Positions 1,880-28,129 of a stretch of DNA of 31,238 bases are shown here, piece after piece (the stretch's first letter is position 1; each line of letters opens with the position of its first letter). Under the pieces are notes generated by a model. That model saw only the letters and a list, made by a program, of their open reading frames with translations. It did no database searches and was not told the origin of the DNA. The stretch is from positions 1 through 31,238 of IMG/VR virus record IMGVR_UViG_3300036466_000415; one strand, 5' to 3'. The translations under genes were made by a program, and so were the position numbers. Source of the stretch: a virus.

Positions 1880-2707
1880 CTATTGCAATTGCCATGCATC
1901 TACCATTAACTCTTCTGGTCGCTTGCATCCGCCGCCAAGGTTGTGACGCATTACAGCCAGTTCGTTATCAAGTTGTCTGCGGGCAAAATGCAGATTGTTT
2001 ATATGCTCAAAGGTGCGTGAATATAATTCAGGATTTAGCGAGGCTAGCCCATTGCAGATACCTTGGTGCCAACGGTAGTTCACCCACGCTGCGGAGTGCA
2101 TTAACACCTCCACCAGTCTGGCTTGTTCGCTCGTTAACATATAGCCTGGCTCATGACGTGTGTCTTTGCCTAGCCATTCACCATCGAGCGCCACACGATG
2201 CACATAAGCGGTGGCCTCGGCAATTTGGATGGTGTCAAGCTCGTCGATGTGTTTTACATTAAAGCGTTGATGCACTAAACCGTAAGCCTCTGGATAGTTG
2301 AGCTTCATTTTCGACACCAAAAGGTTTATTGCGTCACGCAACCCAGTACGATCGTCGGTACTGCTCTTGCGAGAGTGTTGTTTTAGTGTGGCGGCCATGG
2401 CGTTAAAGGCGTTGATATAAGCCTCTTTGATCGCCGCCGCCTTTTTGCCAGTGAAACCCATCACCAGAAACATAAAGCCGTCTTTGGTCATTTGGTATAA
2501 ATTATAAGTCTCGCCGTTTTGCTCATTGATATATGGGTGTGCTGAAAAGTTAGCAGACCTAAATTCATCTGAACAATCAAGGCTTTTAATTTTGGCTGTG
2601 ACGTTGCGATGTTGTTTACCAAATGCTTCTGCAACTTTGAGTGAAGTGGTTTTGATGTCGCCGTTATCGCTGGTAACAGCATTGTCGGGAATGATAGAAG
2701 TGATCAT
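1880..2707 (-). CDS. Rha-family phage regulator with P22 antirepressor-like C-terminal domain
   Basis: A 275-residue leftward gene. Residues about 20-105 match the Rha domain: VAEAFGKQHRNVTAKIKSL, then YNLYQMTKDGFMFLVMGFTGKKA and IKEAYINAFN. Residues about 120-180 (DAINLLVSKMKLNYPEAYGLVHQRFNVKHIDEL) resemble the C-terminal domain of P22-type antirepressors. Such proteins act in phage regulation or antirepression, and Rha interferes with growth in IHF-lacking hosts. ATG 2707 follows CGGAGCACC. The gene sits opposite to the late operon, has its own promoter and a leader of more than 200 nt, so it is an independently regulated moron. The exact target is unknown. Confidence 0.8.
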   Translation of the reverse strand: MITSIIPDNAVTSDNGDIKTTSLKVAEAFGKQHRNVTAKIKSLDCSDEFRSANFSAHPYINEQNGETYNLYQMTKDGFMFLVMGFTGKKAAAIKEAYINAFNAMAATLKQHSRKSSTDDRTGLRDAINLLVSKMKLNYPEAYGLVHQRFNVKHIDELDTIQIAEATAYVHRVALDGEWLGKDTRHEPGYMLTSEQARLVEVLMHSAAWVNYRWHQGICNGLASLNPELYSRTFEHINNLHFARRQLDNELAVMRHNLGGGCKRPEELMVDAWQLQ

Positions 2708-4984: not shown

Positions 4985-7912
4985 ATGGGTAGCTACGGGT
5001 TGAGATCGCTTACCGTTGACTTGGTTGCCAATACAGCGAGTTTTGAGGGGGGGCTCAGTAAAGCTGAGCGTGCCATCCGCAATACCGAGAACAGTCTGAC
5101 CAAAATGGTTGAGCGCATTGACCCGGTAACAACCAAGTTAAACAACCTTGATCAAGCCTACGCAAAACTTACTAAGGAGTTTGAAGCTGGGACGATAGAT
5201 AAAAGCAAGTTCGAGCTTTATTCAAAACAAGTTAAAGAGTTTCGACATCAAGTAGAGCGTTCGCAATACGACAAGCTGTTAAATCAGCTAGACCCTATTC
5301 GCACCAAGATCAGCGACATAGCCGATCAACAAAAACGCTTAAAGGCGGGTTTTGACAAAGGACTGATCAACGAGGCTGACTATACCCGTTACAATAAAAG
5401 CTTAGAGCAGATGCGCGTTCAGCTGACGGGTAATGAAAAAGCAATAAACGGCAACGCCCTGTCAGCTAAACAGATGCAGTGGGCTATGCGTGGATTGCCA
5501 GCGCAGTTTACCGATATATTTACCTCGCTGCAGGGCGGACAAAACCCGATGACGGTGTTCATCCAGCAGGGTGGTCAAATTAAAGATATGTTTGGCGGCG
5601 TCGGCCCAGCAGCAAAAGCGATGGGAGGGTATCTGGTTGGTTTAGTAAGCCCCTTAACCCTTGCAGCTGGAGCGGCGATTGTGGCTGGGCTGGCCTATTA
5701 CCAAGGTAGCAAAGAGGCTGATGAGTTTCGTAAAGCGATCATATTGACGGGTAACGCTGCCGGAACAAGCGTTAACCAGCTAACCGATGCGGCAGCACGC
5801 ATTGATCAATATGCAGGCACCCACAGGCAGGCAGCCAAAGCCTTATCGGTTGTCGCAAATACAGGGAAATTCACCGGGAAACAACTCGAGCTGGTTGCTG
5901 CGACAGCAGTAATGATGGAAAACACTGTCGGCAAGGCTATCGATGAAACCGTCAGCGAGTTCGAAAAACTAGCCAAGGATCCTGCTAAAGCTGTTGCTGA
6001 GCTCAATGAAAAGTATCACTTTCTCACTGCAGGCGTTTATGAGCAGATCAATGCGCTTGAAAAGGCTGGCAAACAGAATGAGGCGGCAAAGTTAGCTACC
6101 GAAGCTTACGCTGACGCAATGCAAGAGCGCACCCAGCAGTTAACTGAAAATCTAGGCTATGTCGAGCGAGCATGGAAATCGGTAAAACATGCAGCTGTAG
6201 AGGGGTGGGATGCCACTTTAGGTGTTGGGCGACCGGAAACCATCACCGATCAAATTGCCAAAGCTAAAGCGGAGCTAGCTGGGTTAACAGGTTCAACCCA
6301 GTTGAAAGTGAACATTTTAGCCAACACCACCGGACTTAATACGGGCGCAATACCTGAGGCTTACAAGCCAAACCCTGACGCCGCGAATAAGCAGGCAAAA
6401 CTACTAGAGAAACAGATTGCTGATTTAGAGCTAATGCAGCAAGTGCTTAATGATACAGCCGAAGAGGAATCCCTACGCGCCAAGAACATTGCCAAATCTA
6501 TTGCTGGACAACAAAAGTTCAATGATATTCTTGAGGCTACTCTCACCAAAGAAGAAAAGCGAGTCAAAGCGCAACAGGATCTGCAACGTCACATTAGCAA
6601 TATCCGCGCCGCCGACCCCAGCAGCGCCTTAATCAATGACGCCAATATAGCTAAGGCTCAAAAATGGATTGACGATCAATATAAAGAAAAAGATAAGGCC
6701 GAGTCTGACGTAGGCCAAAAGCTGTTACGCCGCTACCAGCAGCAAGAGGCTCAGTTGCGTCAGCAACTTGAAAGCAGCGAAAAACTGAGTAAGCAGTCGC
6801 AAAATTTACTGGGGTTAGAGCAGCAAATTGCCGACCTTAAAAACAAAAAAGTGCTAACTGCTGATGAGAAAAGCCTGCTGGATTATGCTGAAAAAAATAA
6901 GGCTCAACTAGAAATAAATGCAGCGTTAGAGCAAGAGTTAACCAAGCGCGAGCAGATCCGCCGCGAAATGGCATTTCAGCAAAACCTAAGCAGTGAAACT
7001 GCCGCTATTCAACAGCAATACGCCGACGAACTTGGCGCATTTGGCAAAGGCGACCGCACCAACAAACGTCTTATTGGCCGCAACGCCATTACCCGCAGCA
7101 TTCAGGGTAAAAAAGACGACTTAACCAACCAGCTTACAGAGGGGGTAATTGGTGAAGATGAGTACAACACCAATATGCAAACCCTTGAATCTGAGCTGTC
7201 AACTCGCCTGCAAATGTATGAAAAGCATTATCAGGATATAGATGAGGCTCGTGCCAATTGGCAAAATGGTGCGAGCCGCGCGTTTGACAACTATATCGAT
7301 AGCGCCAATGATGTCGCCGCGCAGACTGAAAACCTGTTTAACAACGCCTTTGGCAGCATGGAAGACGCGATCGTGCAGTTTGCCCTCACTGGAAAAGCCT
7401 CCTTTGCCGATTTTGCTAGGGCGATTTTAGCCGATCTGGCTCGCATAATGGTTAAACAGGCTTTGGTTAAGGTGATTGGGGCTGTATTCGGCGGATATTC
7501 TGATGGTGGCGTGGTCGGTGGCTTTGGAGGCTATGACAGCGGCGGCTACACAGGCCCTGGCGGCAAGTATCAGCCCGCAGGTATCGTACACAAGGGTGAG
7601 GTGGTCTTTAGTCAAGAGGATGTAGCCCGTAACGGCGGTGTCGCCAGTGTTGAGCGCATTCGAAAGGGCTTCAAGGGATTCTCTGATGGTGGCGTGGTCG
7701 GCGGTAATTATGCTGCTTCAGCTATGCCAGCGTCAGGCGGTGTGAATATCACCCAGCACATCAGTGTTGATAGTGGTGGCGAGCAAAATATGAATGACCG
7801 CAATAAAATAGGCAAGGCGTACGCTAAAGCGGCGGATCAAGGTACCCGAATGGAAATTGCCAAGCAACTTAAGCCAGGTGGCCTCATCTGGGCTGCGATG
7901 AGGGGATATTAA
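4985..7912 (+). CDS. Tail length tape measure protein (lambda H-like)
   Basis: A 975-residue protein, the longest in the tail module except J. The N-terminal 160 residues are helical and charged, followed by MTVFIQQGGQIKDMFGG, a stretch common in lambda-like tape measures. A hydrophobic segment lies around residues 210-240 (LVGLVSPLTLAAGAAIVAGLAYY). Long coiled-coil-like Gln/Glu/Lys-rich parts fill the middle. Near the C-terminus is the Gly-rich SDGGVVGG...GGYTGPGG with HKGEVVFSQEDVARNGG, and SDGGVVGG occurs again. It sets tail length and helps DNA entry. Its stop overlaps the start of M by one base. Confidence 0.9.
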   Translation: MGSYGLRSLTVDLVANTASFEGGLSKAERAIRNTENSLTKMVERIDPVTTKLNNLDQAYAKLTKEFEAGTIDKSKFELYSKQVKEFRHQVERSQYDKLLNQLDPIRTKISDIADQQKRLKAGFDKGLINEADYTRYNKSLEQMRVQLTGNEKAINGNALSAKQMQWAMRGLPAQFTDIFTSLQGGQNPMTVFIQQGGQIKDMFGGVGPAAKAMGGYLVGLVSPLTLAAGAAIVAGLAYYQGSKEADEFRKAIILTGNAAGTSVNQLTDAAARIDQYAGTHRQAAKALSVVANTGKFTGKQLELVAATAVMMENTVGKAIDETVSEFEKLAKDPAKAVAELNEKYHFLTAGVYEQINALEKAGKQNEAAKLATEAYADAMQERTQQLTENLGYVERAWKSVKHAAVEGWDATLGVGRPETITDQIAKAKAELAGLTGSTQLKVNILANTTGLNTGAIPEAYKPNPDAANKQAKLLEKQIADLELMQQVLNDTAEEESLRAKNIAKSIAGQQKFNDILEATLTKEEKRVKAQQDLQRHISNIRAADPSSALINDANIAKAQKWIDDQYKEKDKAESDVGQKLLRRYQQQEAQLRQQLESSEKLSKQSQNLLGLEQQIADLKNKKVLTADEKSLLDYAEKNKAQLEINAALEQELTKREQIRREMAFQQNLSSETAAIQQQYADELGAFGKGDRTNKRLIGRNAITRSIQGKKDDLTNQLTEGVIGEDEYNTNMQTLESELSTRLQMYEKHYQDIDEARANWQNGASRAFDNYIDSANDVAAQTENLFNNAFGSMEDAIVQFALTGKASFADFARAILADLARIMVKQALVKVIGAVFGGYSDGGVVGGFGGYDSGGYTGPGGKYQPAGIVHKGEVVFSQEDVARNGGVASVERIRKGFKGFSDGGVVGGNYAASAMPASGGVNITQHISVDSGGEQNMNDRNKIGKAYAKAADQGTRMEIAKQLKPGGLIWAAMRGY

Positions 7913-8250
7913 TGCCATTGCAGCAATTTATTTGGGTCCCAACCGGCGAGGCGTCAGGCGATAAGTCGTTTAGTGTTCGCAAGGCTGAATTTGGTGACGG
8001 TTACAGCCAAGCGGTTGCCGATGGTTTAAATAACGAAAAGCAAAGCTGGCCACTCACTTTCACGGTAAAAAAGTCGGAGGCGGAGCTGATCCGCGACTTC
8101 TTCGACCAACATAAAGGTAGTCAATCATTTGCGTGGACTCCACCGCTAGGCACCTTGTCACTATGGACAGTGGAAAAATATGCCATCACGCCACTCGGCG
8201 CCAATATCTACCGTATCAATGCCACATTTGAACAGGCCTATCATCCTTAG
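7912..8250 (+). CDS. Minor tail protein M-like
   Basis: A 112-residue protein that matches lambda M in size and position, directly after the tape measure. It opens MPLQQFIWVPTGEASGDKSFSV and carries KAEFGDGYSQAVADGLNNEKQSW, the typical 'FGDGY.Q' motif, and ends FAWTPP...ATFEQAYHP. M takes part in building the tail tip. TAATG at 7910-7914 couples it to the tape measure gene. In lambda the next gene is L, but here a 3.2-kb retroelement cassette lies between. Confidence 0.85.
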   Translation: MPLQQFIWVPTGEASGDKSFSVRKAEFGDGYSQAVADGLNNEKQSWPLTFTVKKSEAELIRDFFDQHKGSQSFAWTPPLGTLSLWTVEKYAITPLGANIYRINATFEQAYHP

Positions 8251-8282: not shown

Positions 8283-9443
8283 ATGACAGTAGAACAAATT
8301 AACTTAGGCACCTCACCAACAGGCGGTGACGGCGATACCGCGCGCCAAGCATTCGAGAAGGTCAATAATAACTTTACTGCCGCCGAAAACGCCGCCAGTC
8401 GATTGGTCGGCGTGGATAGTCCTGAAAAACTGGTCGATAAGGCAGGATTTGAGATCCTAATCAAGGACCGACTAAGGCAAGAGGTTGAGTTTATATCCGG
8501 TGGTAAAAATACGGTGATTTATGACGCCCAAGGCAATCCAAACGTCATGGTTGTCATACCTAGATTTAATTATGAAGATCTGGGATTGCCAGATTTACAG
8601 CTTGGAACTGGTACTCCTACAGCATTTTTAACTAACGGTGCTCCACGTGGCGAAATAATGATTGCCAAATATCTGGCTAGCGCAGGAGGCTCTACATGCT
8701 CAGTTATCGGCGGTGTGCAGCCGCAGGTATACGTTAACTATGACCAAGCAAAGGCTAAATGCACTGACAAAGGCGCTGGCTGGCATTTAATGTCACATCA
8801 TGAGTGGGCCGCTATTTCACTGCTGGCATTTGGCAATGGAACTGTGCCCCGTGGAAACACTTATCATGGACGCGCGCACGATAGGCCAATAGAAACAGCG
8901 ATACGTGAAGATGATGGAGCTCCAGGCGACGCATCCGGAACAGGAAGCACGGACACAGGTAGTGGCCCAGCGACTTGGTCTCATGACCATACTGATTTTG
9001 GTGTGTGCGATTTAGTTGGTAATGTCTGGGAATGGCAAGATCAAATGAAGCTCGTTGATGGTCAGATAGTCACAACGCTAGATAACGCACCAGAACAGCT
9101 AGAATCAAGCTGGATTTCTCAGCAGGCATACTACAACGCATCTGGAGGCTTGAAACTAGACTCATCAGTAACAGTGTCTGGCTCCGTTAACGTTGAATTC
9201 AGGCAGCTTGGCAAGTCAGCGTCATATGTTCCAAATGAGCTTATGCGCCGCATTATGCTCGAGACAGCATCACCTAACACGTTAAATGGCAGGATTTACG
9301 CTGACAATCGCGGGGAAAGACTACCGATCCGCGGAGGCAGCTGGAACAACGGCTCGAGCGCCGGGCTTTCGGCTCTCATCCTCAGTTTCTCGCGTTCGTA
9401 CTCGAGCAGCACGATCGGTTTCCGTCCAGCTTATTTTTCATAA
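8283..9443 (+). CDS. DGR target: variable tail protein with FGE/C-type-lectin-like C-terminal domain
   Basis: A 386-residue protein. Residues 1-45 (MTVEQINLGTSPTGGDGDTA, then QAFEKVNNNFTAAE) are a tail fibre attachment sequence common in phages. From about residue 110 the protein looks like the formylglycine-generating-enzyme type of C-type lectin fold: GWHLMSHHEWAA, then DFGVCDLVGNVWEW, and a C-terminal LPIRGGSWNNGSSAG...IGFRPAYFS. The last 37 residues are the VR. Asn codons of the template are changed here at residues 353, 359, 366, 368, 369, 373, 375 and 377 (now S, S, I, S, F, Y, S, T). The conserved core W354, N355, N356, G379, F380, R381 and P382 is kept. It should display a variable receptor-binding surface at the tail tip. 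Confidence 0.92.
   Translation: MTVEQINLGTSPTGGDGDTARQAFEKVNNNFTAAENAASRLVGVDSPEKLVDKAGFEILIKDRLRQEVEFISGGKNTVIYDAQGNPNVMVVIPRFNYEDLGLPDLQLGTGTPTAFLTNGAPRGEIMIAKYLASAGGSTCSVIGGVQPQVYVNYDQAKAKCTDKGAGWHLMSHHEWAAISLLAFGNGTVPRGNTYHGRAHDRPIETAIREDDGAPGDASGTGSTDTGSGPATWSHDHTDFGVCDLVGNVWEWQDQMKLVDGQIVTTLDNAPEQLESSWISQQAYYNASGGLKLDSSVTVSGSVNVEFRQLGKSASYVPNELMRRIMLETASPNTLNGRIYADNRGERLPIRGGSWNNGSSAGLSALILSFSRSYSSSTIGFRPAYFS
9323..9431 (+). repeat. DGR variable repeat (VR)
   Basis: This 109-bp stretch aligns without gaps to 9904-10012. Ten positions differ. Nine are adenines in the template: G at 9340, 9358, 9385 and 9406, T at 9379, 9387, 9388 and 9399, C at 9412. The tenth is C to G at 9413. This adenine bias is the signature of mutagenic retrohoming. 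The last 18 bp (9414-9431) are identical in both and are the likely initiation-of-homing segment. Confidence 0.95.
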
Positions 9444-9462: not shown

Positions 9463-9480
9463 GTGGCGCGATAGCGCCAC
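9463..9480. other. DGR hairpin/cruciform downstream of VR
   Basis: GTGGCGC (9463-9469), a GATA tetraloop and GCGCCAC (9474-9480) form a perfect seven-pair GC-rich hairpin 31 bp after the end of VR. No T-run follows, so it is not a standard terminator. Size, loop and position match the target-DNA hairpin that raises homing efficiency in the Bordetella phage DGR. Confidence 0.8.
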
Positions 9481-9530: not shown

Positions 9531-9893
9531 TTGTCAGCATTGATAATAGAAGAGAAGTGCAGAGAGATGATTTTGTTTGGCTATGCTGCAATAAAGCAGT
9601 TCCCCAAGCACGAAACTCACGTTCTTGGCGCAGAAATCAGGCTGTCAATGCTGCAAATGCAGCGCTTAATCATCACCGCGATGAAGCGCTACCACAAAAA
9701 GACCACGCTAACCGATCTCGACATTGAGATTGCGATACTAAAGCGTAGGGTAAGGCTGGCTAAAGATCTGCGGTACGTTGACATAAAACGATATCAAAGA
9801 TGGATAGTTCAAATTGTCGAAATAGGTAAAATGCTAGGAGGCTGGATAAAGTCTCTTGGTTTTCAAGACCGTCAACAGGTTGGCGCATTATGA
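9531..9893 (+). CDS. avd: DGR accessory variability determinant (Avd)
   Basis: A 120-residue basic, all-helical protein. The segment YHKKTTLTDLDIEIAILKRR, followed by VRLAKDLRYVDIKRYQRWIV and EIGKMLGGWIK, is the hallmark of the Avd four-helix-bundle family. In Bordetella phage this protein forms a pentamer, binds the RT and the template RNA, and is required for cDNA synthesis. The start is TTG at 9531, with CAGGAG at 9519-9524; no in-frame ATG gives a full-length protein. Its TGA stop (9891-9893) overlaps the ATG of the RT by 4 bp. Confidence 0.93.
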   Translation: MSALIIEEKCREMILFGYAAIKQFPKHETHVLGAEIRLSMLQMQRLIITAMKRYHKKTTLTDLDIEIAILKRRVRLAKDLRYVDIKRYQRWIVQIVEIGKMLGGWIKSLGFQDRQQVGAL

Positions 9894-11161
9894 ATACACC
9901 GGAACCGATCCGCGGAGGCAACTGGAACAACGGCTCGAACGCCGGGCTTTCGGCTCTCAACCTCAATAACTCGCGTTCGAACTCGAACAGCAACATCGGT
10001 TTCCGTCCAGCTCTTGATCACGCCAGAAGCAATAACCCTAATGGGTGTTGCCAGTGCAATAATGAAAAGGATGCGCCAACCTCGGCTATTGCCGAAACAC
10101 TCACCAAGCCTTTCGACGCGTCGAAAGGCTGCTTATTTGAGGGTATATACGCCTTTGAAAATATCCTTGCCGCAGCATATCAGTGCAGAAAAGGAAAGGC
10201 TAAATCAAATAGCACGCTAAGGTTTTTTAACGAGCTGGAGGAGAACGTCATCCAACTGCAAAATGAGTTGATGTGGGGCATGTATCAGTCATCTGCATAT
10301 CATCATTTTTACGTATTTGAGCCAAAAAGGAGGTTGATCTCCGCTCCAAACTTCAGGGATAGAGTTGTTCACAGAGCTATTTATAACATTATTGAACCAC
10401 TATTTGACAAAACATACTGCCACGACTCGTATGCTTGTAGGCACAATAAAGGGACGCATAAAGGAGCTGATAGGGCACAGCTTTTTATCAAGCGCGTGGA
10501 GCAAAAGTATGGCAAAGCTTATGCGCTTAAAGCGGATATTAGTCGTTACTTCTCAAGCATAGACCATCACATATTAAAGTCGATAATCGCTCAAAAGATA
10601 AAATGTGAACGAAGCAAGTCTCTGCTGTTTTACGTTATAGATTCAAGCCCTAGCGATGAATTTGCGGTTGGGATACCGCTTGGTAATTTAACCAGCCAGA
10701 TATTCGCCAACCTATATTTAAATGAGCTCGACAGATTTGTTAAGCACCACCTCAAAGCTAAAAACTACGTAAGGTACATGGACGACTTTGTGATTATTCA
10801 TCACGAAAAAATTCAGCTTCACGAATGGCGCAGGCAGATAGAGCTGTACCTTAATCAAAATCTAAGGTTAAAAACTAACGCCAAGACGCAGGTGTTTCCC
10901 ATTTCGCGCAACAATGGCAGAGGGCTTGATTTTCTCGGGTATAGGATCTACTCGGATCATAGGCTGTTAAGAAAATGCAGCGTGAAAAGGATAAAGTCCA
11001 AGCTTAAAAAATTTCATTTAGATTACGGCAATGGCGAGATCAACATAAGCGATATAAATCAATCAATACAATCTTGGATTGGGCACGCAAAGCATGCTAA
11101 TGCGCATGGGTTAATGACAAAGCTATTTAGTCAAGCTTTTACGAGGAACGATAATGTTTAG
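9890..11161 (+). CDS. DGR reverse transcriptase with TR-encoded N-terminus
   Basis: A 423-residue protein. The conserved RT starts near residue 82 (LFEGIYAFENILAAAYQCRK) and includes FYVFEPKRRLISAPNFRDRV, SYACRHNKGTHKG, the first catalytic Asp in LKADISRYFSSID (D216), the DGR-type GIPLGNLTSQ (261-270) and the catalytic YMDD at 296-299. It copies TR RNA with errors at adenines. The frame starts at ATG 9890, overlapping the avd stop. I find no in-frame ATG, GTG or TTG after it until about 10264, inside the conserved RT domain, so the TR must be translated unless a rare codon is used. A small phage gene overlaps its end by 8 bp. Confidence 0.93.
   Translation: MNTPEPIRGGNWNNGSNAGLSALNLNNSRSNSNSNIGFRPALDHARSNNPNGCCQCNNEKDAPTSAIAETLTKPFDASKGCLFEGIYAFENILAAAYQCRKGKAKSNSTLRFFNELEENVIQLQNELMWGMYQSSAYHHFYVFEPKRRLISAPNFRDRVVHRAIYNIIEPLFDKTYCHDSYACRHNKGTHKGADRAQLFIKRVEQKYGKAYALKADISRYFSSIDHHILKSIIAQKIKCERSKSLLFYVIDSSPSDEFAVGIPLGNLTSQIFANLYLNELDRFVKHHLKAKNYVRYMDDFVIIHHEKIQLHEWRRQIELYLNQNLRLKTNAKTQVFPISRNNGRGLDFLGYRIYSDHRLLRKCSVKRIKSKLKKFHLDYGNGEINISDINQSIQSWIGHAKHANAHGLMTKLFSQAFTRNDNV
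9904..10012 (+). repeat. DGR template repeat (TR)
   Basis: The template partner of VR, 581 bp downstream of it. It holds about 26 adenines, with ten Asn codons (nine AAC, one AAT) whose first two adenines can be mutated without creating stop codons. Eight of those codons differ in VR. It lies entirely inside the RT reading frame, in the same frame as VR, so it encodes residues 6-41 of the RT as an Asn-rich copy of the target's C-terminus. Confidence 0.95.
10107..10130. repeat. 24-nt perfect palindrome in the TR-RT spacer
   Basis: AGCCTTTCGACG is followed directly by its exact reverse complement, 94 bp after TR and just before the conserved RT domain. RNA from either strand would form a strong hairpin. 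A smaller hairpin, CGGC-TATT-GCCG, lies at 10083-10094. It also encodes RT residues 73-80. It may be part of the structured spacer RNA that DGR RTs need downstream of TR; that function is inferred. Confidence 0.8.
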
Positions 11162-11444
11162 TTACATATATAAGTCGCAGCGCCACAGCGATACTGATTT
11201 AAATTACATGAAAAACCTAGGTATGGATGAGGAGCAAATTAATTCAGTGCTTTCTCAGCGTCAATACGAGGCTGTTGACGGGGCTGTAGCAAAAAGAAAA
11301 GAGGCTTATTTAACTGAGTCAGACCCGTTATTTATAGAAGCTTCATTTGATAATGACGAAGCAAAAGTGCAAGCGTGGAGAGATAAGGTTATTGAGATAA
11401 AGGCCAGGTATCCTATCAACCATGAATTTATGGTTAATAAATAA
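11154..11444 (+). CDS. Small tail-fibre-associated protein
   Basis: A 96-residue protein. It has a helical N-terminal half (GMDEEQINSVLSQRQYEAVD) and a C-terminal ESDPLFIEASFDNDEAKVQA, then WRDKVIEIKARYP. The 'SDPLF...W..K..EIKARYP' pattern is common in short proteins encoded after phage tail fibre genes, some of them fibre chaperones. It overlaps the RT end by 8 bp, and its TAA shares a base with the ATG of L. Its location suggests it serves the variable tail protein rather than the retroelement chemistry. Confidence 0.6.
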   Translation: MFSYIYKSQRHSDTDLNYMKNLGMDEEQINSVLSQRQYEAVDGAVAKRKEAYLTESDPLFIEASFDNDEAKVQAWRDKVIEIKARYPINHEFMVNK

Positions 11445-12184
11445 TGCTCACTCATGACATACAAATCCTAGAGCCTGGCAGCGAAATTATTCTGTTCGAG
11501 GTCGACGGCAGTGACTTTGGCGCCGATATTATGCGTTTTCATGCCCATAATATCCCGCATGCGGCGGATGAAATTGCCGAGGCTGTCGCGCAGCAGTTAG
11601 ATCTACCAGCAAAGTCTATCTGGTGGCAGGGCGAAGAATACTCACCATGGCCAGTTAAAATTGAGGATGTAGAGATCAACTCAGATGGCTCACCATCTAG
11701 TCCAAAGCTCACAGTAGCTAACTTGGAAGGTACTATATCTGCGTTGTGTTTAATCTACCAAAACATGGAAAATGCCAGGGTAACTATTCATCGCACCTTA
11801 GCCAAGTATCTCGATGCGGCTAACTTTAGCGATGGCAATGCTGATGCAGATCCAACCCAAGAGAATATCGATATCTGGTTAATTGACCAAAAGACCACCG
11901 AGAATAACCAGATAATTCAGTTTCAGCTGTCTAATCCTGCGGCAGTAGGTAACTATAAAATAGGCCGCAAGATGACACCTTATTGTTTTTGGTGTCAGCG
12001 TGGTCGATATCGGGGCCCTGATTGTGGTTACACTGGGGGTGCCATGTTTGATATAGACGATAACCCCACAACAGACCCGGCCGCAGATCAATGCAGCGGC
12101 ACCATTGCTGGCTGCAAAAAGCGCTTTGGCGAAGACGCCGAACTACCTTATGGTGGCTTTGCCGCCGTGCGCATGATCAAATAG
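11444..12184 (+). CDS. Minor tail protein L-like (Cys-rich tail tip protein)
   Basis: A 246-residue protein resembling lambda L. The N-terminal part is a beta-rich tail tip domain, and the C-terminal 70 residues hold five Cys (181, 184, 194, 217, 224) in YCFWCQRGRYRGPDCGYTGG and DQCSGTIAGCKKRFG. In lambda the equivalent Cys bind an iron-sulfur cluster. The end, ELPYGGFAAVRMIK, is also typical. ATG 11444 overlaps the preceding stop. It is followed by K, I and J, which restores the lambda order after the DGR. Confidence 0.87.
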   Translation: MLTHDIQILEPGSEIILFEVDGSDFGADIMRFHAHNIPHAADEIAEAVAQQLDLPAKSIWWQGEEYSPWPVKIEDVEINSDGSPSSPKLTVANLEGTISALCLIYQNMENARVTIHRTLAKYLDAANFSDGNADADPTQENIDIWLIDQKTTENNQIIQFQLSNPAAVGNYKIGRKMTPYCFWCQRGRYRGPDCGYTGGAMFDIDDNPTTDPAADQCSGTIAGCKKRFGEDAELPYGGFAAVRMIK

Positions 12185-21138: not shown

Positions 21139-22686
21139 CTATGCTGCAGCTGCGGTTTGTGTGCAAAGCTCTGGCAGGTTTGCGCGGGTGAGTGCTTCGG
21201 CAAATTGCGGCGGTACGCTGTTGCCAACACGGGCGACTTGCTGCTTTTTGGTCGATTTACCGTTGTAGTTGTTGATGATGTAATCAGCGGTGAAACCTTG
21301 GCAGGCGAATAGCTCATGGGGTTCGAGCATGCGCATACCGATATCGATGATTTGATAGGGTTCGCCCTTGATCATCACTAGGCCAAAGCGGTCATTGGTG
21401 GTGATGGTGTGCAGTGGTTCGTTACAGGCCACGCCGTCTTGCTCGTTGCCGTAGTATTTGATGAAGAACGCGCGCACTTCGCCAAGGTGTAAGCCGCCAG
21501 CGGTAATAGTGTGTGCTGGTTCGTCCATTGGAAAGCCTAGGTTATCGCCCCGCAACTTAATCATGTGGCTGGTGATCAGTGAGTTGTGATCCACTGTTGT
21601 TACTGTCGGCAAAGGGTTGTTTAGATCATCACCTGGTCCAGTGTAGTTACCACCGTAATGCTTACAGATATTGGCAGCAGCGAGCACAGGTTGCACTACG
21701 GCAAAATGACCGCCTTTGACTGCAGCGCAGATGGTTCGCAGTGGTTCGTTAACTGCCATATTGCGTTGATTGCTGGCGTTAGCGTGCTCGGTAATAAAGG
21801 GCGCTAGCGTGACGTTTTGCGGCACAATAAACGGCTCTTTGGCATCAACCACAAAGCGCTGAATGCCTTTAGCAATACGGCGCATGGTGTTTTCAGCCAG
21901 CGGCCTTTTGCGACCAAAGATTGATTTGCATGGCAGTGACCAGTCTATGCATTCAGCAGCTGTTCGCCACGGTAGCAGCTTGCCAGATATCACCGCTTCG
22001 CTATCTGGTGCACCGTGAGTTGGCTCAGGCCAAACGATGGGTTGACCATCGCAACGGGCGATCATGAATAGACGCTTACGGATTGTTGGGGCGCCATAGT
22101 CACAGGCTCGTAGCTCGCGCCACTCGACCTTATAACCCAGCCCTTTAATCAATTTGGCAGCATCGAGCAAACCTAAGGTTTCAACACATTCGGCTAATGC
22201 AGGGTGATCTGCATCAATGCCAGTGCTTAACATGCTAACAAAGGCGTTAAAGGTTTCGCCTTTGCGGTCTTTGCATGGGTGCATTGCATCCGATTCAGGG
22301 CATTGAATTAACGGCCCCCACGTTTTAAATTCTTCGACGTTTTCGAGCATCATCACCCTAGGGCGTACCGTCATCGCCCAGCGAACGGTTACCCACGCTA
22401 AGCCGCGGATCTCTTTATTGACTGGTTTGCTGCCTTTCGCTTTTGAGAAGTGCTTGCAGTCGGGTGAGAACCACGCCAAATCAACGGGTTTACCTGCCGT
22501 CGCTTGCACTGGGTCGATATCAAATACCGACTCGCAATAGTGCAGGGTGCTAGGATGGTTTGCAGTGTGCATAGCAATAGCGTCAGGGTCGTGGTTGATA
22601 GCGATATCAACGCTGCGACCAATAGCCCAGCCCATACCAGTGGAAGCACCACCACCGCCAGCGAAGTTATCTGCAAAAATGCCCAT
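21139..22686 (-). CDS. C5-cytosine DNA methyltransferase
   Basis: A 515-residue enzyme that should add methyl groups to C5 of cytosine using S-adenosylmethionine. Motif I is DNFAGGGGASTGMGW (residues 6-20). The catalytic Cys is C77 in WFSPDCKHFSKAKG, a phage-type version of motif IV. E115-N116-V117 is motif VI. TIRKRLFMIAR (about 202-212) is motif VIII, and VGNSVPPQFAEAL near the C-terminus is motif X. The target recognition part is residues about 215-480, with several 'PL.TI' repeats (EPLRTICAA, EPAHTITAG, EPLHTITTN). There is no restriction endonuclease next to it, so it probably protects phage DNA from host restriction. Confidence 0.92.
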   Translation of the reverse strand: MGIFADNFAGGGGASTGMGWAIGRSVDIAINHDPDAIAMHTANHPSTLHYCESVFDIDPVQATAGKPVDLAWFSPDCKHFSKAKGSKPVNKEIRGLAWVTVRWAMTVRPRVMMLENVEEFKTWGPLIQCPESDAMHPCKDRKGETFNAFVSMLSTGIDADHPALAECVETLGLLDAAKLIKGLGYKVEWRELRACDYGAPTIRKRLFMIARCDGQPIVWPEPTHGAPDSEAVISGKLLPWRTAAECIDWSLPCKSIFGRKRPLAENTMRRIAKGIQRFVVDAKEPFIVPQNVTLAPFITEHANASNQRNMAVNEPLRTICAAVKGGHFAVVQPVLAAANICKHYGGNYTGPGDDLNNPLPTVTTVDHNSLITSHMIKLRGDNLGFPMDEPAHTITAGGLHLGEVRAFFIKYYGNEQDGVACNEPLHTITTNDRFGLVMIKGEPYQIIDIGMRMLEPHELFACQGFTADYIINNYNGKSTKKQQVARVGNSVPPQFAEALTRANLPELCTQTAAAA

Positions 22687-23257: not shown

Positions 23258-23529
23258 GCTGCCTCCTTGCTGATTTTTGTGCCAAAAATTGCGAGATGGA
23301 TTAACGCCGAAAACGACCCTTGTCTACCGCTGATAGCGGTGAGCTTTATTGTGCGATGCGGCAACTCTGTGACGACAGTGGTGTACTTCTTACTGACCCT
23401 GATATTGAAAAGCTTTCCAGATGCTTGCTTAGATGTGATCCCCAGCTCTTTAGCTAGCAAAGATGAGGTATAGCGTCTGCCAGTGGTCAGCATGTGCTCT
23501 GCTACTTCTGAAGTTGAATATGTGCTCAT
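23254..23529 (-). CDS. Small winged-helix-like protein (91 aa)
   Basis: Starts MSTYSTSEVAEHMLTTGRRY. Residues about 5-45 (SEVAEHMLTTGRRYTSSLLA, KELGITSKQASGKLFNI) look like a winged-helix DNA-binding domain. The start at 23529 is chosen over 23553 because its ATG overlaps the stop of the adenine methyltransferase and GGGAGAAG lies upstream. Its role is probably regulation within the early operon; not proven. Confidence 0.7.
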   Translation of the reverse strand: MSTYSTSEVAEHMLTTGRRYTSSLLAKELGITSKQASGKLFNIRVSKKYTTVVTELPHRTIKLTAISGRQGSFSALIHLAIFGTKISKEAA

Positions 23530-24689
23530 GCTGCTTCTCCCACTGGCTCGCACTTAGCTAGCATTTCGCTGAGCTCGGCGGTGATGGCTTCGACACTGGC
23601 GCTTTCTAATATGCGTTGATTAACGTGCATGCAGAGTGCGCGATGACGGTAGTTGTTGCGCTTGTCTTGTGCATCAGTAAACGCTTGCTCGACTAGCTCA
23701 AGCACCTCATTGGGCCATACTGATTTTGATGGCTCTTTTTCTGGTATTGAGCCACGCGCTATCTGTTCCTCGATATCGATTTGCTGGTCCGTCTTAACAA
23801 CCTTTTGCGCACCAATCTCTTTCATCAGCGAGATTAGCTTTGCTTCGGCTTCATCGTAGCTAACCTTACTAGCCCGTAGTTCTGTAGCCTCATCACACAA
23901 CTGGTCGCGAATGCTGCGCTTTTTATATTCAGAATGCCGAACGAGAATGCTATTTACTAAGTTAGTGACGGTAGGCGACCAACGAGCGTTATCTTCCCAC
24001 TGTTCATCTGTCTCAACTTGGTTGACTGGCTCATCTTCAGCACCAGCTGCGGTGAGCTTATTTGCTGCTGCGTCAATCATGTCGAGCATGATTTGGCCGT
24101 CACGTAGCAGGTCGTCGCGGTTGATGTAGCTCATGCGCTCACCGCGCCATGTCTTATCGAACACTGCTATGGCACAGGCGAACCCTGCACTTGATGCAGC
24201 TTGTGTTTTGTCGGCAGGTTTAAACCACTCGGGCAGGTCAAAACTTATGCGGCCGCGGATGAAGCACACATGATCTGCATCTTCTGGCCACCACACTTCT
24301 GATGTTGCCGACTTGATGAGGTAGACGAACTTAGCGCCCTTATCGCGCTCGATTAGCGATTTAGCGATGATATTGCGCATACCTGTGACAGCTTGCTTAT
24401 CTTCATAGGAGCTGCGCGAGTAAGGTGGGTTAGCAAAGGCTTTGCCGCCGGCTAAATCCTTGGTCCAGTCTTTGGTTAGCGCGTTATCTTCAACGGTGTA
24501 GAAGTTAGGGCATTTGGCGTTTTCTCCATCGCTAAACAAGTCGAGGATAAACGGGCCAAACTTGGCGAAAATGCCCCAGTACAGATCGTCTGGTGTGCGC
24601 CATTGGTCGCCCACTTCTTTGAGTAAGTGCTTTGCTTGCTGCTTAAGCGCTGCCAGCTTAGTAGCGTAATTGTTGGTTGTGGTGGTCAT
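23526..24689 (-). CDS. Phage N6-adenine DNA methyltransferase (Dam-like) with C-terminal extension
   Basis: A 387-residue protein. Residues about 28-200 are the phage Dam family: DQWRTPDDLYWGIFAKFGPF, ILDLFSDGENAKCPNFYT, the catalytic NPPY at 87-90, and KFVYLIKSATSEVWWP, FIRGRISFDLPEW. It should methylate adenine, often in GATC-like sites. Residues about 205-387 are an added helical, acidic part with no clear family. No endonuclease partner is visible nearby. It is followed by a coupled winged-helix gene. Confidence 0.9.
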   Translation of the reverse strand: MTTTTNNYATKLAALKQQAKHLLKEVGDQWRTPDDLYWGIFAKFGPFILDLFSDGENAKCPNFYTVEDNALTKDWTKDLAGGKAFANPPYSRSSYEDKQAVTGMRNIIAKSLIERDKGAKFVYLIKSATSEVWWPEDADHVCFIRGRISFDLPEWFKPADKTQAASSAGFACAIAVFDKTWRGERMSYINRDDLLRDGQIMLDMIDAAANKLTAAGAEDEPVNQVETDEQWEDNARWSPTVTNLVNSILVRHSEYKKRSIRDQLCDEATELRASKVSYDEAEAKLISLMKEIGAQKVVKTDQQIDIEEQIARGSIPEKEPSKSVWPNEVLELVEQAFTDAQDKRNNYRHRALCMHVNQRILESASVEAITAELSEMLAKCEPVGEAA

Positions 24690-27268: not shown

Positions 27269-28129
27269 CTAAGCGACGTCATCCAATTCTAGGGTTGGAC
27301 AAATGCCAATGTTTTTACTTGTGATAAGCAACTCGGTTCCTTTGCGTTTCTTAGCTGCAAAATAGTTCAGGCTAAATTTATACTGAGGGTGGGACTCGTA
27401 TAAGTTTTGAATTTGCTCTGCATCGTCGTAGGTGAGTATCCATGAATGGTTTAGGCTCATGATTAAATCAGCCAGCTGCTGATGATCTTCCGGGTTATAA
27501 AAATTAGTATACAGAGTTGATCCTTTAACAAAATAAGGAGGGTCAATACAGAATAAGCTATTACTTGATAATGTTGAGTCCAGCTTTTTAATAAAGTCAA
27601 TCGCATCAAGGTTATAAAGTTTGATTCTATGTCTATACTCACTAACTCTGGTTATGCGCTCTATGAGGCCTTCCTTGTTGTACCTGCAATCAAGTTTGTA
27701 TTTGCCATCTTGATTTAAGCCGCCAATAACGCCTGCTTTCAGTATGATTCCTGAACGGTTGGTGCGGTTTAGAAAGAATGATGAGAAAGCCAGCTCAAAA
27801 TCAGGAAACATATCCTTGTTTTGTTGAATATGTCGTTGTTTATGCCATTCATCCATAGTGACTTCAGTTGTGCGGATTTTTTCTATAAAGGCTTCTGTGT
27901 GATTCAGCACCGCATCCCAAAAACACCAAATCGAGCGATCTAAATCGTTCAGATGAATGGTACTAACTAAGTCATTGAATAAAAGCGTTAACGCAAGCCC
28001 TGCGCCACCGGCATAGGGCTCGGCATAATCTCCATCTTCTAAACCATTGTCGACAATGATTTTAGAGACCATATCGAAGATTGCTGCTTTCCCGCCTGGA
28101 TAGCGTAATGGCGATGGGGCTGTAGACAT
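27269..28129 (-). CDS. D12-class N6-adenine DNA methyltransferase (Dam family)
   Basis: A 286-residue enzyme. YPGGK (10-14) is motif X, AEPYAGGAGLA (36-46) is the S-adenosylmethionine motif I, and IDPPYF (DPPY at 196-199) is the catalytic motif IV. The size and order (X-I-...-IV) fit the D12/Dam class, which methylates adenine in short sites. FLNRTNRSGIILKAGVIGG is typical of this class. It is the last gene of the cI operon and its upstream neighbour is the ParB-like gene. No nuclease of classical type is adjacent. It is the third methyltransferase of the window. Confidence 0.9.
   Translation of the reverse strand: MSTAPSPLRYPGGKAAIFDMVSKIIVDNGLEDGDYAEPYAGGAGLALTLLFNDLVSTIHLNDLDRSIWCFWDAVLNHTEAFIEKIRTTEVTMDEWHKQRHIQQNKDMFPDFELAFSSFFLNRTNRSGIILKAGVIGGLNQDGKYKLDCRYNKEGLIERITRVSEYRHRIKLYNLDAIDFIKKLDSTLSSNSLFCIDPPYFVKGSTLYTNFYNPEDHQQLADLIMSLNHSWILTYDDAEQIQNLYESHPQYKFSLNYFAAKKRKGTELLITSKNIGICPTLELDDVA

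Follow-up and report, generated by a model that had tools for sequence, protein, structure and literature searches.

A DGR in a lambda-type phage tail operon with its template repeat and predicted spacer RNA inside the reverse transcriptase reading frame

Organization of the locus

The window (the whole stretch of DNA analysed here, 31,238 nucleotides) carries tail genes in the order tape measure, M, a gene we term T, avd, a template repeat (TR) situated inside a reverse transcriptase (RT) ORF, a small ORF, and then L, K and J. The cassette inserted between M and L reads as a diversity-generating retroelement (DGR), one of a known class of systems in which a template is copied with its adenines scrambled so that a tail protein varies, and has the following features:

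7912-8250, plus strand: homologue of minor tail protein M (PF05939 at 1.3e-31); upstream border of the cassette slot.
8283-9443, plus strand: target gene T, 386 aa, with a tail-fibre-type N-terminus and an FGE-type C-type-lectin C-terminal domain ending in the variable repeat.
9323-9431, plus strand: variable repeat (VR), in frame at the C-terminus of T, from a de novo repeat search.
9417-9431, plus strand: IMH-like 3' end of the VR, the same in TR and VR; its TR counterpart, IMH*, is at 9998-10012.
9463-9480, plus strand: target-recognition hairpin GTGGCGC-GATA-GCGCCAC, with a 7-bp stem, 31 nt 3' of the VR.
9531-9893, plus strand: avd, accessory variability determinant, with a TTG start (PF22296 at 1.6e-29; NF033474).
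9890-11161, plus strand: RT ORF, 423 aa, with residues 1-80 from TR and spacer and the core from residue 82.
9904-10012, plus strand: TR, in frame within the RT ORF (codons 5-41), from the same de novo search.
10005-10139, plus strand: structured spacer RNA (TR 3' end and spacer), from RNAalifold, pair counts and the covariance model R1.
11154-11444, plus strand: small ORF, 96 aa (phrog_5714), which travels with T.
11444-12184, plus strand: homologue of minor tail protein L (PF05100 at 5.9e-71); downstream border of the slot.

In 71 relatives without the cassette, M and L are separated by 6-21 nt; a DGR cassette between them is seen in the window and in three other loci (L016, L052 and L117). 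In L157, a related phage, the corresponding slot is instead filled by an ordinary fibre of 857 aa that shares the N-terminal motif of T (L157:1111-3684), together with a 231-aa neighbour, and three further loci (L159, L160 and L162) have an M-L spacing similar to that of L157. Hence, the slot appears to exchange receptor-binding cassettes, with T occupying the place of a fibre.

Elsewhere in the window, a Rha-type regulatory gene (1880-2707, minus strand) breaks the strand order of the tail genes, and it adjoins a match to the Rfam family sRNA-Xcc1 (RF02221; 2746-2830, minus strand; 73.9 bits against a cut-off of 53). One early region contains three DNA methyltransferase genes of the C5-cytosine, Dam-type and D12 classes (21139-22686, 23526-24689 and 27269-28129, minus strand).

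Protein and DNA components of the cassette

Profile searches match T to PF03781 (1.6e-6), phrog_2889 (1e-127) and 5VF4 (1.2e-56), the last being TaqVP, the DGR variable protein of Thermus aquaticus (PMC6328139). The model of T has pLDDT values that mostly exceed 70 starting near residue 62, and it is closest to the same protein (39% identity over 327 residues, Z 44.4), followed by TvpA (Z 13.1) and Mtd (Z 11.8). The predicted structure is thus that of a C-type-lectin-fold DGR target with the VR at its C-terminus. The product of avd scores 102 bits against the NCBIfam equivalog cut-off of 80 for NF033474, identifying it as the accessory protein that many, though not all, DGRs possess. The RT matches phrog_1423 (1.6e-166) and, as its best solved structure, bRT (8UB7; 7.8e-61 over residues 82-413), and has the catalytic YMDD of DGR-type RTs at residues 296-299.

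The small ORF is a homologue of ACA1 gp45 (function unknown); it has no match in Pfam or among solved structures and no similarity to BPP-1 bbp4. As it follows T, directly 3' of it, even in loci lacking avd, TR and RT, it is more likely a fibre partner or chaperone of T than a DGR component.

Phage DGRs are marked by hairpins with GC-rich stems of 7-10 bp and a GRNA loop, 4-34 bp from the VR (PMC3240598). The hairpin of the window, which folds as DNA at -9.8 kcal/mol (z -3.3), falls within these bounds in stem length, loop and distance. In nearly all relatives with RTs at least 67% identical to that of the window, its stem varies, the loop reads GATA or GGTA, and it lies 31-34 nt from the VR. 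By analogy with BPP-1, the segment 9417-9431 would be the IMH; among the 12 relatives whose final Pro codon contains an adenine, none has it changed.

Mismatches between the template and variable repeats

The two repeats are 91% identical and differ at 10 of 109 positions: nine of the 26 template adenines and one of the 83 other bases (hypergeometric P = 6.2e-6 for at least nine of ten mismatches on A). A position-by-position comparison agrees with the original prediction, which had counted nine adenine differences and one among about 83 other bases: there are four A>G (9340, 9358, 9385, 9406), four A>T (9379, 9387, 9388, 9399) and one A>C (9412). The sole non-adenine difference, C>G at 9413, affects the third base of an AAC codon that is already altered and is a rare extra change; we considered it as an IMH/IMH* difference and rejected this, since it is absent from other relatives. 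Eight of the ten Asn codons of the TR are altered in the VR (S353, S359, I366, S368, F369, Y373, S375 and T377), reproducing the residues claimed earlier. The same comparison confirms that both Asn codons after W354 (N355 and N356) are unaltered. Because the adenines of these two codons are changed in 48-70% of cases among 27 relatives, their intact state in the window reads as a chance draw, and a selective reason for their sparing was rejected on the same ground.

RT-based scans for relatives recovered 61 viral and 25 genome loci. Within this family, TRs and VRs were paired by protein motif, a procedure blind to the type of mismatch, giving 32 distinct pairs in which 377 of 746 TR adenines (50.5%) differ as against 9 of 2422 other bases (0.37%). 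The corresponding Fisher P value of 5e-261 overstates independence, since near relatives are pooled and near-copies counted as independent. A first family count (815 of 1658 adenines and 42 of 5945 other bases) was set aside, as its pair finder and filter favoured adenine mismatches.

The original prediction had proposed comparing the VRs of sister strains, and among the relatives two such pairs differ mainly at adenines: L013 and L015 have no differences over 2484 bases outside the VR and 14 over 116 bases inside it, 13 of these 14 at TR adenines, while L054 and L055 differ at 18 of 22 adenines and at 2 of 85 other bases. In another relative a 669-base near-identical direct repeat with a spacing of 557 bases (L060:3712-4380) shows 16 mismatches between its copies, 15 of them where the second copy has an adenine.

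It might be supposed that the VR arose by ordinary tandem duplication of the gene end, followed by drift or by positive selection on surface residues, given that the eight codons altered by the VR changes lie in the predicted ligand face. Neither drift nor selection would be expected to leave 82 of the 83 non-adenine bases untouched when 9 of the 26 adenines have changed, or to produce a pair such as L013 and L015, which match throughout 2484 bases but have 13 VR differences at TR adenines, and we regard this origin as hardly credible. Adenine-specific mutagenic homing is supported as the only reading that accounts at once for where the mismatches fall, for the intact state of avd and RT and for the relatives. 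For a dependence of this homing on the RT, the VRs of the sister phages give indirect support.

Past homing and present activity

The adenine bias had been taken as strong evidence of past activity and against a fossil. The first part stands: the bias proves past homing, and one homing event could account for all nine adenine changes. It does not by itself prove present activity, as is illustrated by an orphan target. Locus L091 (L091:6933-7343) comprises a T gene with VR and the small ORF on a 34-kb contig that lacks avd, TR and RT; when this VR is compared over 109 bases with the TR of L161:462-570, from another contig of the same metagenome, all 13 differences are at adenines. Therefore, an adenine-biased VR can persist after its machinery is gone or be produced in trans, and L091 reflects either recent enzyme loss or the action in trans of another phage's element. 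For at least ten T homologues, some of them on short fragments, avd, TR and RT are missing from the contig and the small ORF comes directly 3' of T (L091, L093, L101, L103, L110, L111, L113, L115, L116 and L126). In addition, L106 has only a remnant of the RT (its end), and both L113 and L106 retain the recognition hairpin, a pattern suggesting that avd-TR-RT was lost from the interval separating T and the small ORF.

These orphans, with the RT remnant of L106 and the purely adenine-directed differences that L091 still displays, are what would be expected if homing had made the VR of the window once and the element were now dead. Full-length T, Avd and RT, the last with its YMDD, are present in the window, and both the hairpin and the spacer helices pair; furthermore, protein conservation of the RT core is ordinary for the clade, when a dead element should drift. 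It is thus the integrity of T, Avd, RT, hairpin and spacer, rather than the mismatch pattern, that makes a fossil unlikely. Neither megablast against phages nor a scan of viral contigs for exact 48-mers found a near-identical copy of the window phage, and among 129 genomes searched from L064's genus the single match was the genome of L064 itself rather than a sister of the window phage; hence, we infer the activity of the window element itself.

A reading frame through the template repeat and spacer

The ATG of the RT overlaps the avd stop codon (ATGA) 14 nt before the TR, and the frame remains open through TR and spacer. This overlap is found in all 28 of 28 loci of the clade with RTs at least 67% identical to that of the window (support 100/99). 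In 22 of 30 clade loci, including the window and the public records, there is no in-frame ATG, GTG or TTG between TR and the RT core.

The competing view is that the RT starts downstream of the TR, from a non-AUG codon or by internal entry, and that the open frame across the TR is incidental. Downstream starts are usual in DGRs less than 55% identical, most of whose RTs begin about 130-215 nt after the TR; eight members of the clade have a candidate in-frame start in the spacer, at positions that are not conserved; and the AlphaFold model of the RT has pLDDT below 50 for residues 1-71 and 76-78, rising above 90 from about residue 81, where similarity to bRT sets in (residue 82). The invariant ATGA overlap, the lack of start codons in the spacer of the window and most other clade members, and the alignment of coding spacers, in which gaps are of 3 or 6 columns only, all point the other way and render a downstream start very improbable. 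We infer that in this clade the RT is translated through TR and spacer, and the approximately 80 residues so encoded, predicted to be disordered, are probably a tolerated tail. The RT frame of VHML (L152:4101-4236) has a break close to the third spacer helix, and in the deposited record the RT is annotated as starting further downstream.

A structured spacer RNA within the coding sequence

Directly 3' of the TR lies a structured spacer of about 130 nt, as in BPP-1-type RNAs. Its four helices pair 10010-10015 with 10068-10074, 10029-10038 with 10043-10051, 10082-10086 with 10091-10095, and 10107-10116 with 10121-10130. RNAalifold on 21 coding spacers returned 31 pairs, of which 11 have changed on both sides; 95.9% of cells are paired, and covariation scores 0.308, compared with 0.146 for shuffled and at most 0.075 for slid alignments. 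The first helix, which contains the last three bases of the TR, lacks covariation support of its own because it hardly varies.

Synonymous conservation follows the same stretch: identity at fourfold sites among 14 representatives is 0.63 in codons 1-42 and 0.61 in codons 43-86 of the RT, then 0.30-0.35, and codons 43-86 have the lowest protein identity (0.64) despite this raised conservation. Judged from these patterns, the nucleotides of TR and spacer are constrained as RNA as well as coding for the RT. The last 12 codons of avd also show raised synonymous conservation (0.80, against about 0.35-0.63 across the rest of the gene); in BPP-1, avd carries at its 3' end a motif that brings reverse transcription to a halt (PMC12875486).

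The covariance model R1, built from the coding spacers, also matches noncoding spacers located directly after the TR in more distant loci (L041 at 4.7e-11, L031 at 7e-10, L034 at 3e-8, L054 at 3e-5, and others). Even at E values as high as 10 it fails to find the BPP-1 spacer (L154), which is too diverged for the model. Rfam holds no model for the structured spacer.

Discussion

Taken together, the locus is almost certainly a complete DGR that belongs to the tail operon of a lambda-type temperate phage (prophage) and diversifies the receptor-binding C-terminus of the tail-fibre-type protein T. Its membership in the DGRs is clear, with mismatches of the TR/VR pair concentrated at TR adenines, and this adenine signature is textbook. 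The BPP-1 DGR (mtd-avd-TR-brt) resembles it in gene order, Avd, RT, a C-terminal lectin-fold target, post-VR hairpin and adenine mutagenesis. The two differ in that 144 nt of noncoding spacer separate TR from brt in BPP-1, whereas in the window both TR and spacer are coding sequence, and in that T is only distantly like the BPP-1 target Mtd and is instead TaqVP-like; with the T. aquaticus prophage DGR the locus shares this target fold. The Pseudoalteromonas phages ACA1 and ACA2 and the Vibrio phages VP58.5 and VHML, with RTs 50-72% identical to that of the window, belong to the same clade or are its nearest kin and have the same order of T, avd, TR/RT and small ORF; their DGRs are, however, in P2-like contractile tails, unlike the position between M and L of a lambda-type tail seen here.

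In BPP-1, the spacer folds and draws in bRT-Avd, and cDNA synthesis at the TR 3' end starts from an internal adenine that serves as primer (PMC12875486). By extension, the Avd-RT complex of the window would bind the spacer, whose helices at 10010-10130 may act like the BPP-1 spacer, and cDNA would be primed from an internal spacer adenine at the 3' end of the TR; as R1 fails to match the BPP-1 spacer, this priming mechanism is carried over by analogy. Misincorporation opposite template adenines would follow, the cDNA would replace the VR at the site marked by the IMH and hairpin, and the replacement would change which host surface ligand is bound by T. With the RT read from the ATG at the avd stop through TR and spacer, a single stretch at about 9855-10150 would have three roles: template, priming and binding RNA, and 5' coding part of the RT.

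Some of this arrangement is already known, having been noted in passing: structural group 3 of the DiGReF survey consists of DGRs whose TR runs into the RT ORF at its 5' or 3' end (PMC3521204), and the ACA paper describes the TR as translated into an N-terminal extension of the RT, with no description there of a spacer RNA in the ORF (PMC10612066). The 5' overlap of group 3 is like that of the window, but the survey infers separate TR and RT RNAs (PMC3521204) where the window has one frame. In the literature searched, which left most subscription papers outside its scope, we found no description of a structured spacer inside the RT coding sequence or of its fixation across a clade. The new point is that the spacer RNA appears to double as RT mRNA.

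When BPP-1 was reconstituted in E. coli, adding a ribosome-binding site before brt raised activity 100-fold and separate expression of the TR-RNA a further 35-fold (PMC12875486), which argues that the balance of RNA and RT limits function. With the whole DGR RNA (avd 3' end, TR and spacer) nested in coding sequence, Avd-RT and ribosomes might compete on the enzyme's own mRNA, resulting in autogenous control. We offer this tentatively, as a possibility with the odds against it; if true, template supply and enzyme synthesis would be automatically balanced. It makes the sharing of one RNA between ribosomes and RT a testable question in a DGR, and the phages that keep the target without avd-TR-RT provide natural frozen variants for comparison. 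More generally, an RNA element with comparable helices in coding and noncoding contexts offers evolutionary evidence for a conserved spacer structure among DGRs of phages distant from BPP-1.
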